In this document: positions 2,599 to 56,600 of the stretch, in pieces | How the letters are laid out: each line of letters starts with the position of its first letter | Position numbering within the stretch: position 1 is the first letter of the stretch | NCBI GenBank assembly: GCA_009845835.1 | Contig: VXYV01000036.1 | Coordinates: 1 to 60,774, forward strand | From: Gammaproteobacteria bacterium | GTDB lineage: Bacteria > Pseudomonadota > Gammaproteobacteria > Pseudomonadales > Azotimanducaceae | Length of the DNA stretch: 60,774 nt | Reading direction: 5' to 3' | The notes under the pieces: generated by a model | What the model was told of the DNA's origin: nothing | The model's database searches: none | What the model saw: only the letters and a program-made list of their open reading frames with translations | Program-made: the position numbers and the translations under genes

Positions 2599-3064
2599 TG
2601 ATTTCAAGAGCCGTGTACTATATCGCGGGATAAGATTAAACGAACCACTATCGTGCGAAACACAAAAAAGCCGTGGGTTAAAAAATATGGAGTTGATTAT
2701 GCCTCTACAAGAGTTGCTAGTTTGCGCTGTTGTGTTGCTTCGTTTGCCATACCGATCTGACGGCGTACTTGATCGTATGCGGAAAAACGGTGCTATGACC
2801 AAGATTGAAGGTATTGAGTGTGCCCGGATTGACAAAATAACGAGATACATGCTAAATCTTATTCCAGATCAGGTAGACAACACAAGAATGTTATTTATGC
2901 TAGGATTTTGCGAGAATACCGAATACATGATGCTCCATCATAAGACACGTTCACGGAGCTCTTGTCAGAAAATACTTATGCTTGATAAAGTTTGTGAACG
3001 TTACCAAGCAACTGTTCCACTATCTGCATTTACCAAAACCAAAAGTAATAGTGGTGTGTGTTGA
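2591..3064 (+). CDS. Hypothetical protein, possibly damaged at its 3' end
   Basis: Unrecognised protein of ~157 aa if begun at the ATG (2591) that overlaps the stop of the ParB-like gene; that overlap suggests translational coupling. It contains a hydrophobic stretch (QELLVCAVVLLRLPY) and basic, cysteine-containing regions. It stops at 3064. A second open frame (2982-3203) overlaps its end and continues with a plausible sequence (VIVVCVDVSKGQPRAFRLPP), so the reading frame may have been broken near 3000-3060 and the original protein may have reached 3203. No homologous family is recognised, so neither reading can be confirmed. The neighbour suggests a two-gene unit with the ParB-like protein. 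Confidence 0.4.
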   Translation: MNNDFKSRVLYRGIRLNEPLSCETQKSRGLKNMELIMPLQELLVCAVVLLRLPYRSDGVLDRMRKNGAMTKIEGIECARIDKITRYMLNLIPDQVDNTRMLFMLGFCENTEYMMLHHKTRSRSSCQKILMLDKVCERYQATVPLSAFTKTKSNSGVC

Positions 3065-3277
3065 TGTGTCAAAAGGTCAACCAAGAGCATTCAGGTTGCC
3101 TCCATTTCCGTATGGTATTTTATCAAATTGTAGATACCATAAATTTCTATTCAACCGCAGATTGCTAAATTGTTTTTCAAACTTTTCATTTGAGTTTCAA
3201 TAAGTAAACTCCGATACTAACCTAAACACGAAGATTCACTGTCGAAGTACTGTTACTACCATGATTGTCCGAAAATT

Positions 3278-45914: not shown

Positions 45915-46712
45915 ATGGACGACAAATGGTCGGTTTATGATACTAAGTTAACTAGTCGTTTGTTCTTAGGTACTGCTCGGTATCCTTCGTTAGCAGTCCT
46001 GCAAGCTGCAATCAAAAAATCGGGAACGGAGGTAGTAACAACTAGTCTTCGCCGCCAAAACCCTTCGCAGAAAGGTGGGAAATCTTTTTGGAATAAGTTA
46101 CAGCAACTTGATTGTTGGGTGCTCCCGAATACAGCGGGGTGCCATACTGCCAACGAAGCGACGACACTAGCGCAAATGTCGCGTGAAATATTTCAAACGG
46201 ATTGGATTAAGCTTGAAGTAACCGGCGATGAGTACAACTTGCAGCCTGACCCCTTCGAACTGGTAGTCGCCGCAGATCAACTCGTCAAATTAGGCTTTAA
46301 AGTGTTCGCTTACACCACTGAAGACCTCGTGCTGTGTTCTCGGTTACGCGATGTAGGTTGCGAGGTTATCATGCCTTGGGGTGCACCAATTGGTACTGGC
46401 AAAGGCATTCTGAACCAGTATGCATTAGAGACTTTGCGCAACCGTTTACCCGAAGTCAGTCTAGTGCTTGATGCTGGTGTCGGGCAACCGTCACATGTAG
46501 CACAAGCGATGGAATTAGGATTTGACGGAGTTCTACTGAATACCGCGATCGCCACCGCTGATGATCCGGCTCAAATGGCTGAGGCTATGAAGTATGCGAC
46601 ACTTGCTGGTCGTACAGCATACCTTGCCGGGCCCATGGCAGAAAGTGGTACAGCTAACCCTTCCACCCCGAATGTGGACTTACCGTTCTGGCAGAATCGC
46701 CAACAAAATTGA
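45915..46712 (+). CDS. thiG: Thiazole synthase
   Basis: Forms the thiazole phosphate from DXP, ThiS-COSH and dehydroglycine. 265 aa. Blocks: [59 protein letters not shown] with the Schiff-base Lys (K99), [15 protein letters not shown] and [30 protein letters not shown]. Ends one base before the minus-strand SelW-like gene (stop to stop). Confidence 0.97.
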
Positions 46713-46713
46713 G

Positions 46714-46929
46714 TTATTTCAACTCTGAGATGAGTTGATCTTCGTCTGGGAACTCCCCGGTCTTATGTTTGGAGTAGATTAATTTGCCATCGATATAGAC
46801 GTCAAATATACCTGCACCACCCGCTTCGATCTCGGTGTCGACACCGAAGTGGGTTTTGAACTTAGCAGCTAAACTAACCGCTTTGGGTTTATAGTCTCAC
46901 GCGGAGCAATATAGGATTCGAACGTGCAC
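46714..46929 (-). CDS. SelW-like Rdx-family selenoprotein (UGA read as selenocysteine)
   Basis: A 71-residue protein hidden by an in-frame UGA. From a GTG start (46929) it reads HVRILYCSA, then UGA (46897-46899), then DYKPKAVSLAAKF, FGVDTEIEAGGAGIFDVYIDGKLIYSKH, and KTGEFPDEDQLISELK to TAA. YCSA-U-DYKPK is the CxxU redox motif of selenoprotein W (compare YCGAUGYKPK) and the rest follows the SelT/SelW/SelH thioredoxin-like fold. Fifteen bases after the UGA there is a 7-bp hairpin suited to a bacterial SECIS. A -10-like TATAAC (46959-46964) lies upstream, but it could also be read through from the kinase gene. The role is probably thiol redox; the sel genes themselves are not in the window. Confidence 0.85.
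46864..46882 (-). promoter_or_regulatory. SECIS-like hairpin after the selenoprotein UGA
   Basis: On the minus strand: AGCGGUU, loop AGUUU, AGCUGCU, a 7-bp stem (two G-U pairs) beginning 15 bases after the UGA, with G in the second loop position. Spacing and loop fit published features of bacterial SECIS elements; a folding program is needed to confirm it. Confidence 0.6.
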
Positions 46930-47093: not shown

Positions 47094-48116
47094 CTAGACT
47101 TCGAGGGGGCGGTCAATCCGAATTGGATTCATCCACGCCTCAAGCGCATGAATAACGTCTTCCATACTGTCATAACGTTTCTCACGGTCGGAGTGTGTAC
47201 ACCGTAAACACACTTCTTCTAATTCTTCCGGAATATCTAGTTGCGGTGTGCGACTCGAAGGACTAATCTGAACACTCTTCTTGATATTTTCGATTACCGT
47301 CAAAACATCGTTCCCTTCGATCATTCGTTCTAAAGCCAGAACTTCAAATAGTAATGTTCCAATACTATAAATGTCTGTACGATAATCGACGTAACTCGGA
47401 TGTGTGAGTTGTTCCAAAGACATGTAAGGTGGTGTACCCTGCAACGGTGAACGCTGGGTTAATGGTAGGTTTTCGTCGTTTATGTTGAAAGATTTATATG
47501 AAAAATCTTGTTGAGCTTGATCAATCTCAGCTAACATCTCATCGTTATCCCAAACTTTCGCCATACCCCAATCTAGCACCATTACTTCACCGAATTCACC
47601 AACCAAAATGTTCTCCGGTTTCATATCTCGGTGTACGACACCGTGAATATGTGCGTAATGTAGGGCGTGACATGCTTCCGAAATCACATCGATCAAACGA
47701 AACAAATCAAATCCTTCGACCTCATGGGAATTGTGTTTTCGACAACGGTCAATGATTTCGCGTAAAGTCGACCCGTGTACAAGTTTCATCGTGAAGTAGT
47801 AATTACCTTTCACATCTCTACCTAGCTCGTAGGTGGGGATCGTGTTAGGATGCTGCAGCATTGCGGTAACTCGCGCTTCGCGCAGAAAGCGTGCGCATTC
47901 CACTGGGTTCTTCGCCAATTCTGGCTTCAGCATCTTATGGCAAATCGTCCGGCGTAAATGCAAATCCTTACATGAACTGATAATGCAAGTTCCGCCTTTT
48001 GTAATGGTCTTGAAATACATGTAGCGCAACCGATTATCCGGTCGCTCAGGTAGCAAGGTATCTGTCTCCTTGCGATACACCTTAGGATAGGCATCAGGCT
48101 GTTTTGGATAGAGCAC
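47094..48116 (-). CDS. Ser/Thr protein kinase (Hanks type)
   Basis: Cytosolic 340-aa kinase. Visible catalytic features: a degenerate glycine loop (ITKGGTCIISS, ~38-48), Lys K61 (ICHKML), helix-C Glu E80 (FLREARV), HRDMKPEN (162-169, catalytic D164, K166, N169), metal-binding DWG (182-184, Trp in place of Phe of DFG), and GTPPYMSLEQ in place of the usual APE region. So an active kinase is likely. DWG is common in bacterial kinases of this type. No sensor domain or membrane helix follows. It is divergent from the operon at 48263, with 146 bases between, so a shared regulatory region and a shared job are likely. Confidence 0.92.
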   Translation of the reverse strand: MLYPKQPDAYPKVYRKETDTLLPERPDNRLRYMYFKTITKGGTCIISSCKDLHLRRTICHKMLKPELAKNPVECARFLREARVTAMLQHPNTIPTYELGRDVKGNYYFTMKLVHGSTLREIIDRCRKHNSHEVEGFDLFRLIDVISEACHALHYAHIHGVVHRDMKPENILVGEFGEVMVLDWGMAKVWDNDEMLAEIDQAQQDFSYKSFNINDENLPLTQRSPLQGTPPYMSLEQLTHPSYVDYRTDIYSIGTLLFEVLALERMIEGNDVLTVIENIKKSVQISPSSRTPQLDIPEELEEVCLRCTHSDREKRYDSMEDVIHALEAWMNPIRIDRPLEV

Positions 48117-53620: not shown

Positions 53621-56600
53621 ATGTTTCAACGACTAAGAACATTACCCTCTACTTTGTGGTTAGTGCTATTGCTTCTTTTCTCGTTCACACTAGCAGCTTC
53701 ATTACAAGCGCAAGAGGACGACGAAGACGATGCAGATGCTGCCACGGAAGAAGCAGAAGACGATGACGATGAGGAGTCTGATGCGTCTACTGAGCCGATG
53801 GAGGAGATGACCGTAACCGGTTCGCGATTGATCCGGGATACCTACAGCAATATCTCGCCGCTACAGATTATCGACTCCGAGGTCGAACGCGAGGCCGGAC
53901 TCATTGAAGCTGCGGACATCTTACAGCAAACCACGCAAGCGCAAGGGCAGCAAATTGACCTCACTTATACTGGGTACGTGTTGGACGACGGCCCCGGTTC
54001 ATCTACTATATCATTACGCGGCTTGGGCGCTTCAAGATCGCTCGTCTTAGTGAATGGTCGACGTATGGCACCAGCCGGAGTTGAAGGTGCTCCAAGTAAT
54101 CCAGACCTTAATCTAATTCCGGGCGCTTTGGTTCAACAATACGAACTATTGCTTGACGGTGCGTCCTCCGTTTATGGTTCTGACGCCATCGGTGGAGTGG
54201 TCAATGTCATTCTTGCTAAAGACTTCGACGGTCTTGAGATTGATAGCTATTTCGACTACGATGAATACAGTGGTTTAACTTCACAATCGTTGTCTCTGAA
54301 ATGGGGCCAAAACTATGATCGCGGATTTTATGGTATTGGTATGACATTCAATGATCAACCCGAATTCACTCGTGGCGATGCTAGAAGTTATCAAGGTTGC
54401 ACCGGTGCTGCTGAAATCACCCAAGACGGGGAAATTCGTAACACCAGTCAGTGGTTTTCGTACTGGTATGGTATGGAATGGGATGAAGGCTGTGGTTACT
54501 CGGGGTTACTTGGTGGCTGGGTAACAAGCGTTCCTTACGGACCACTGTTTTATACGGCTGGTACTTCCAATGGTGGTTGGAACAATTATTCGATTTCTAG
54601 ATTGCGCGTAGGTGGTGTTTGGTTTTATTCAGACATGGACGGTGACGGTTTTAATGACGTAAGCTGGCAAGATTACGCTCGTGATAAGAATCAGATGTTC
54701 GCGACTCTCTATCCCGAAACTAGCCGCCAAAATGTCATGGCATATGGTGAGTACACTTTCCCGGGAGAGATGAATTTGACGACTTTCTTTGAACTTGGAT
54801 ACGGTAGTCGTTCATCGACCCAAAACGGTGGTGGGTACCAACTGTTTCCTGTCGTACACCCACTAAATCCGTTTAATCCTTGTAATCCTTTCGGTCAAGG
54901 GGTAGATTGTGGTACAGCAGTGAACGGCTTCTTTGCACAACCGTCAGTACGCCAACAGTTTCTTAATACATTCGGCTGTGATCCTGGACCTGGTGGTTCT
55001 TGTGATTTTTCGCAACGTCCACGCGGCCCCATTCCGGTACAACCTGTAGTTGTGATTGAAGGGGATCGAAATATTACTACTGTTGACGTTGCGCAAACTC
55101 GCTTCGTAGCAGGAGCGCGGTTCGATATGCCATTTCTGTCTAACTATGGTTCGCGCAGTGGCTGGCAAGCCGAGTTTTTCGTATCGTTTTCAGACTCTAC
55201 GGGCGAAACCTACAGAGAAGGAATCCATGAAGATCGGCTTCAATTTTCCTTAGGGAATATGTCCGATTACGGTATCCCCTGTAGTATAGGTCCAGTTACA
55301 CCTGGGGATATCTCTGAAGAAGATCAAGCGGGGTGTGTGCCAGTCAATCTCTTTGCACCCAGTGTGATGAATATCGAAACCCATCAAGGACATTTCGCAA
55401 CCCAACAAGAACGTGACTACTTATTTGTCTCCCGTGAATTTGACACGGATATTAGGCAACTGATAGTCTCATATTTCATGACTGGGAACCTCTATAGCAT
55501 GCAAGGGGGGACAGTTGCGGCTGGTTTCGGCGTCGAATGGCGCCAAGATGAGATCGACTCCATACCAAATGAAATCGCAGCGCAAGGTAAGTTTTTTGGT
55601 TTTAGTGCTGATCAAGGTGCCGTGGGTAAGAAATCAGTCTACGAGTGGTTTGGCGAAATCGAATTTCCAATCTTCGGGAATTTACCATTTGCTAACGAAT
55701 TAACTGTAAACTTGTCGGCGCGTAATACGGAAGAAGAGTTTGCTGGAAATGCATGGACTTATTCGGCAAAAATGGCTTACAGACCCGTGTCGTCGTTCCT
55801 GATTCGAGGGACCAAGGGTACTTCGTTCCGCGCGCCAAATTTGCGAGAATCATTCCTTCTAGCCCAAACTGGGTTCTCAAACCTCTTTGATCCTTGTGTC
55901 GTTCCTACAGCTGCTATTGACCCAATTTCGGGCGAGTATGTACCTGACGAAGATCGTCGGGAAGAGCACGTATTGAGGAATTGTCGCGATAACGGTGTCG
56001 ATCCCACTGCATTATTTGGATTCTCAAGTTCTAGCGTGGAAGTGGCCTCCGGTGGTGCGTTAGATCTATTAGCGGAAACCTCAACCTCCGAGACTTGGGG
56101 GTTCAGCTTTGAACAACCATTTACCAATGCATTTTCGTTGGCGTTTGGTGGCTCCGTATACAACGTGAGCATCGACGATACGATTGTTGAACCTTCAGCT
56201 GGTTTTATTATTCGCGACTGTTATTACAGTGAAACTGGCGACAGCCCGTTTTGTCAACGAATCACCCGTGGGCCCGATGGCCGTTTTAGTTACATTCATC
56301 AGGGTTTTATCAATCGTGATAACGAATCAGTTCGTGGAATCGACTTTAATCTGACATTTGCTGACACCTTCACAATATTTGACCGACCAATCGCTTTTGG
56401 GTTCGATTTGATAACCCATAAATTGTTAGAACGTTCCTCCATTACTATAACCGAAGATGAGGAACGCAATGAAGATGTGTCAGAATGGTACTTCCCAAGA
56501 TATCGTCATCGAATGACTCTACGTGCACAATTCAGTCAGATGCGGATTAGTTGGGGTATCAGGGTTCTAGGTCGTCAAGAACAAAACGATGAGTTCGAAG

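Follow-up and report, generated by a model that had tools for sequence, protein, structure and literature searches.

A predicted selenoprotein W gene with an in-frame UGA in a gammaproteobacterium of the family Azotimanducaceae

SelW-like proteins form the most abundant family in the selenoproteomes of the Sargasso Sea (48 genes) and of GOS (427 sequences), and these marine proteins are described as carrying a CxxU motif, with a bacterial SECIS element placed just after the UGA and a G in its small apical loop (PMC1088965, PMC2398784). In eukaryotic selenoprotein genes, according to the former account, the SECIS element lies in the 3'-UTR (PMC1088965). As summarised in a 2026 review, a SELENOW-like protein (PF10262, CxxU) is predicted with high confidence, and the functions of this and similar proteins are largely uncharacterised; the bacterial SECIS model given there has a loop of 3-9 nt with G in its first two bases, an upper stem of 4-16 bp, 16-37 nt between the UGA and the loop, and an MFE of -7.5 or lower (PMC13188914).

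Here we describe a gene of this type in a gammaproteobacterial contig (VXYV01000036.1), of which a stretch of 60,774 nucleotides, referred to as the window, was analysed. We hold with very high confidence that the gene, designated selW, encodes a SelW-like protein of the Rdx family, a bacterial selenoprotein W in which the UGA is read as Sec. This interpretation was initially proposed in a sequence-only reading of the window; it is now supported by the family match, by the SECIS rules together with covariation, by the presence of selA-selD, and by TGA in relatives.

Reading frame, protein family and predicted fold

The selW gene lies on the minus strand at 46714..46929. Read from 46929 down to 46714, it begins with GTG and ends with TAA, and comprises 71 codons including the UGA (Sec) at codon 11 (GTG-CAC-...-TAT-TGC-TCC-GCG-TGA-GAC-TAT-AAA-CCC-AAA-...-AAA-TAA); the 71-codon frame with YCSA-UGA-DYKPK, as first proposed, was exact in its coordinates. 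The in-frame UGA (46897..46899, minus strand) would be read as selenocysteine, giving U11 of the motif C8-S-A-U11. The Shine-Dalgarno-like stretch before the GTG was weak on inspection of the sequence. Across the 35 selW copies considered below, the first codon is ATG in 23, TTG in 8, GTG in 3 and AGA in one, the last being a copy (L055) framed one codon after an ATG. A table 11 ORF listing contained no ORF of at least 60 aa across the selW site on either strand. The gene would therefore probably escape an ordinary gene caller, and reading through the UGA restores a conserved gene that is absent from that listing.

With the UGA read through, the protein matched Pfam Rdx (PF10262) over residues 2-70 at 63 bits (cut-off 22.6, E = 3e-17) and NCBIfam CXXU_selWTH (TIGR02174) at 52.6 bits (cut-off 34.2). 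The Rdx-type, selenoprotein W identity, formerly read from the motif and its setting, was recovered above the cut-offs of both families. The best-scoring NCBIfam model was NF041051 SelTWH_Campy (SelT/SelW/SelH family (seleno)protein), with 70.4 bits; this is under the equivalog cut-off of 88 bits, so the protein is not filed there. Each of the 33 aligned copies matched the same model at E <= 0.001. In alignment A1, the selW protein shares 48-62% identity with the 32 other copies. Because of the Rdx E-value of 3e-17 and the 34 further copies with TGA at the same codon, we judge from these sequence comparisons that the frame did not arise by chance.

Employing 33 aligned copies, with Sec entered as Cys, we built an AlphaFold model of the protein (mean pLDDT 92.9). 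The model has a strand at residues 3-8 followed by a helix at residues 14-28, and presents a thioredoxin-like SelW/Rdx fold with the CxxC/CxxU motif after strand 1 (Sec modelled as Cys). In a Foldseek search with the model, all 23 matches with E <= 0.001 were chains of SelW/Rdx entries, and thioredoxins came next with weaker E-values. PDB sequence matches of the protein included bacterial Rdx proteins as well as C17orf37/MIEN1 (2ljk) and selenoprotein W (2npb). The bacterial Rdx structures 2fa8, 2obk, 2oka, 2ojl, 2p0g and 3dex share the fold of the model (TMq 0.85-0.91) but are presumably not Sec proteins; the motif of 3dex is CxxC, unlike the CxxU of the selW protein. Mouse SelW (2npb) and MIEN1/C17orf37 (2ljk) are related in sequence and similar in fold, but their TM-scores (TMq 0.70 and 0.74, respectively) are below those of the bacterial Rdx proteins; in both structures, the second Cys of the motif aligns with position 11 of the selW protein.

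Conservation of the UGA and the selenocysteine machinery

A protein search of 58 genomes, the source genome included, gave matches in 31, and in 29 of these a matching copy has TGA as its codon 11. The matches numbered 33, of which 29 had TGA and four did not; two of the four are additional copies in G020 and G033, and two are the only matches of G042 and G043. Six more TGA copies taken from named genome contigs brought the total to 35. A 37-residue match in Chryseobacterium (L027), judged to be due to chance, and a Cys protein without TGA (L057) were left out, and a copy found later (L068) stands outside the 35. Over the 66 bases compared, L022 and L025 do not differ from L021, and both were omitted from alignments A1 and A2, each of which has 33 rows (31 distinct rows in A2). 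Codon 11 is TGA and codon 8 is TGC in 35/35 copies, including that of the window. A search of plasmids found no relative.

If a sequencing or assembly error had produced the TGA, codon 11 would truly be a Cys codon and selW an ordinary Cys Rdx gene. In a class-wide sample, 50/369 genomes matched at E <= 1e-8, and 48 of these 50 Rdx matches show no internal stop, as such an error would lead one to expect; TGA was present in the remaining 2, those of the window and of G148. Thirty of the 50 matches became loci, namely that of the window, L068 and 28 Cys loci. When their codons were inspected one by one, TGC or TGT stood at codon 11 in 28/28 of the Cys loci. However, TGA stands at the same codon in 34 copies from other assemblies, which refutes the error in practice; the possibility noted at the outset, that close relatives would carry Cys, was not borne out. 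Moreover, the 28 Cys loci have tryptophan (TGG) at the place of the SECIS serine AGT in Sec genes, and because tryptophan replaces this serine, we regard the Cys homologues as a different subfamily. We consider a misread Cys codon exceedingly improbable. As expected of a bacterial selenoprotein gene, selW has an in-frame UGA at a conserved Cys position, and the UGA is kept in relatives.

The UGA could also be a real stop, with only a 10-residue peptide made and the remainder of a pseudogene decaying. Under table 11, translation does stop at codon 11, and the sole in-frame start-type codon past the TGA is the penultimate sense codon, TTG. We compared seven pairs of relatives, which exclude the window copy and use two rows twice. 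Over codons 24-70, dN was 0.02-0.16 and dS was 0.31 or more, with about 134 synonymous changes over about 227 sites, and these values indicate strong purifying selection on the codons after the UGA in relatives. The synonymous sites of codons 17-22 are nearly frozen, with 2 changes among 35 such sites. Conservation reaches the C-terminus; in the window copy itself, the downstream frame is intact and the Rdx match extends to residue 70. A decaying remainder is hardly credible in the face of these results, and we continue with selW as a selenoprotein gene.

The source genome (2.54 Mb, 122 contigs, 95.7% complete) carries the full set of genes sought: selA (511 bits, over the family cut-off) and, adjoining it on contig C51, selB (355 bits), together with selC (64 bits; UCA anticodon read by eye from the alignment) and selD (261 bits), the last three also over their cut-offs. 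A lack of Sec machinery, which had been named as an objection to the proposal, was thus not observed, and the selW reading shows a source genome equipped for selenocysteine. The selD gene makes up the C-terminal portion of a frame of 730 aa (L018, 1399-3591, minus strand), whose N-terminal portion resembles, on inspection, a pyridine nucleotide oxidoreductase; the SelD portion, with the sequence RCGGCG, is of the Cys type and has no in-frame TGA.

Among the 58 genomes, selB was found at E <= 1e-60 in 28/29 genomes with TGA selW versus 11/29 without (Fisher p 2.2e-6, kinship ignored). Within the window's own family the contrast is weak (28/29 genomes with selW versus 7/8 without), so that the difference stems from other families of the order. 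G032 has a TGA selW and no selB match at E <= 1e-60; its selC scored 73.8 bits, over the cut-off, and two selA pieces were below the cut-off. Our guess is that its selB was lost to an assembly gap or lies in a damaged copy.

Other selenoprotein candidates were considered in the source genome. A peroxiredoxin-like frame (L093; G000:C117, match at 53912-54304, minus strand; AhpC-TSA, 91.5 bits) has an in-frame TGA in SNWUPYC (UxxC) and a possible hairpin after it with the loop AGUUG; as judged from its sequence, it probably represents a second selenoprotein of this genome. Formate dehydrogenase alpha was rejected as a further one: four below-cut-off matches lay in one frame, with no stop. PF07355 gave no match, and its control likewise matched no genome.

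The stem-loop downstream of the UGA

A bacterial SECIS-type stem-loop of 7 bp with the loop AGUUU was located at 46864..46882 (minus strand) by folding and by comparison among copies. Counting the T of TGA as base 1, bases 18-24 pair with bases 30-36, which confirms a 7-bp hairpin whose first base is the 15th past the UGA. The apical loop AGUUU (46871..46875, minus strand) has G in second place; codon 19, the serine codon AGT, supplies its first three bases, and codon 20 contributes its own first two. The loop's outer bases A25 and U29 can pair too, giving 8 bp and the loop GUU. The distance from the UGA is 14 nt to the stem and 21 nt to the 5-nt loop (22 if the loop is GUU). When the bacterial SECIS rules were applied by hand, as the sequence-only reading had suggested for a predictor, the stem of 7-8 bp, the loop AGUUU or GUU and the spacing of 21-22 nt all agreed with the geometry of the model.

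The folding energy was less telling. The hairpin has an MFE of -8.0 kcal/mol on 50 nt and of -7.0 on the bare 19 nt, and the outcome relative to -7.5 depends on the stretch folded. For the single sequence, the energy is unremarkable (z = -0.86; 38/200 shuffles fold at least as well). Rfam gave nothing on the window at the gathering threshold and nothing on 451 bases around the gene in E-value mode. The support for the hairpin is comparative, not energetic, and its energy is borderline.

In the 33 aligned rows, the pair 21-33 is G-U in 24, C-G in 7 and G-C in 2, and the pair 24-30 is C-G in 26 and U-A in 7, with no broken cell at either. In each of the 7 rows where base 21 is C, base 33 is G, and in each of the 7 where base 24 is T, base 30 is A. 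Both pairs join third codon positions, and the changes are synonymous. The covariation score was 0.284 versus a shuffled mean of 0.156, with 0/500 shuffles as high. This score, the number of paired cells and that of cells altered on both sides were above all 500 shuffles and all slid versions, whereas the other two of the five measures (pairs with change on both sides, and further pair types) were not above the shuffles. The outermost pair, 18-36, is broken in 18/31 distinct rows. Mapped onto the protein tree, the two covarying pairs show few changes (at minimum, 7 and 2 pair-state changes), with 2 and 1 independent pairs, respectively, if only well-supported branches are counted, and a tree-aware covariation test cannot reach significance with so few changes.

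The loop serine is AGT in 35/35 copies versus 45/171 of the other serines in the same genes. In the distant SelW of G148, from the same class (L068, TGA at 1531), the stem is GCUCUC/GAGAGC and the loop CGUGC, at bases identical in offset; the stem is unrelated to that of the window in sequence but identical in geometry. The third-position covariation, the fixed AGT loop codon and this unlike stem make a neat RNA signal overlaid on the coding sequence. At the exact SECIS positions, six of the six inner pairs are formed in 32/34 Sec genes (L048 and L056 keep five) versus 0/28 Cys genes (two keep five), a comparison that leans towards this result, as it was the Sec set that defined the positions. 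We also ran a generic hairpin scan, which asked for a loop of 3-9 nt that starts at least 10 nt past codon 11 and has G as its first or second base. The best stems measured 6-8 bp in 34 Sec genes and 3-10 bp in 28 Cys genes, and the scan was dropped as too weak to separate the two.

The SelW of one contig titled BD2-11 clade cluster bacterium (MPMR01000044.1; L026) lies on the longest tree branch. It shares a 17-base hairpin core (3049-3065) with L021-L025 although its protein is far off; transfer, strong constraint or mis-binning may each account for the identity.

The UGA might instead be read as another amino acid, as Trp or through general suppression. We found no point in support of this. 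The presence of all four of selA, selB, selC and selD, a hairpin fitting the bacterial SECIS rules and Cys at codon 11 in every distant homologue checked argue against it, and general suppression is inconsistent with the 11/35 copies that end at TGA, in the genomes concerned (the window copy ends at TAA). Insertion of anything other than Sec has, in our estimate, a negligible chance.

The steps of Sec insertion are established for E. coli. For selW as a selenoprotein gene, the ribosome would start at the GTG at 46929 and meet the UGA at codon 11, where the stem-loop just downstream would recruit SelB carrying Sec-tRNA(Sec), the product of selC charged by SelA with selenophosphate from SelD. 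Sec would then be inserted and translation would run on to the TAA, yielding a 71-residue thioredoxin-like protein with the CxxU pair between strand 1 and helix 1. Computation establishes the frame, the family, the machinery genes, the conserved UGA and hairpin and, in relatives, purifying selection past the UGA; Sec insertion in the cell and a redox role we infer. The protein is most likely a small thiol/selenol oxidoreductase, and its redox partner is probably glutathione or thioredoxin.

Gene neighbourhood and comparison with known SelW proteins

Upstream of selW there is a protein kinase gene (47094-48116, minus strand; Pkinase, 117 bits). On the other side, thiG (45915-46712, plus strand; ThiG, 331 bits) runs in the opposite direction, and its end is next but one to the last base of selW. 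The window also has an FAD oxidoreductase gene (thiO-like, 108 bits). In 10/35 loci (the window and nine same-genus genomes), selW follows a same-strand protein kinase gene at a distance of about 75-176 bases and is convergent with thiG and the thiO-like oxidoreductase gene. None of the other 25 loci showed the kinase-selW-thiG cluster within flanks of 3 kb or less on each side. That SelW in the kinase/thiG loci would be a redox partner of the kinase or of the ThiG sulphur chemistry appears very unlikely.

Judged by their published description, the SelW-like proteins of the Sargasso Sea and GOS are of the same SelW type as the product of the window gene, with CxxU and a SECIS element just after the UGA (PMC1088965, PMC2398784). 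By that description we found no difference in kind; the window copy has a GTG start. SelW-like selenoproteins are, as these accounts present them, already well known in bacteria and common in those of the sea, and the selW gene described here adds one member to them.
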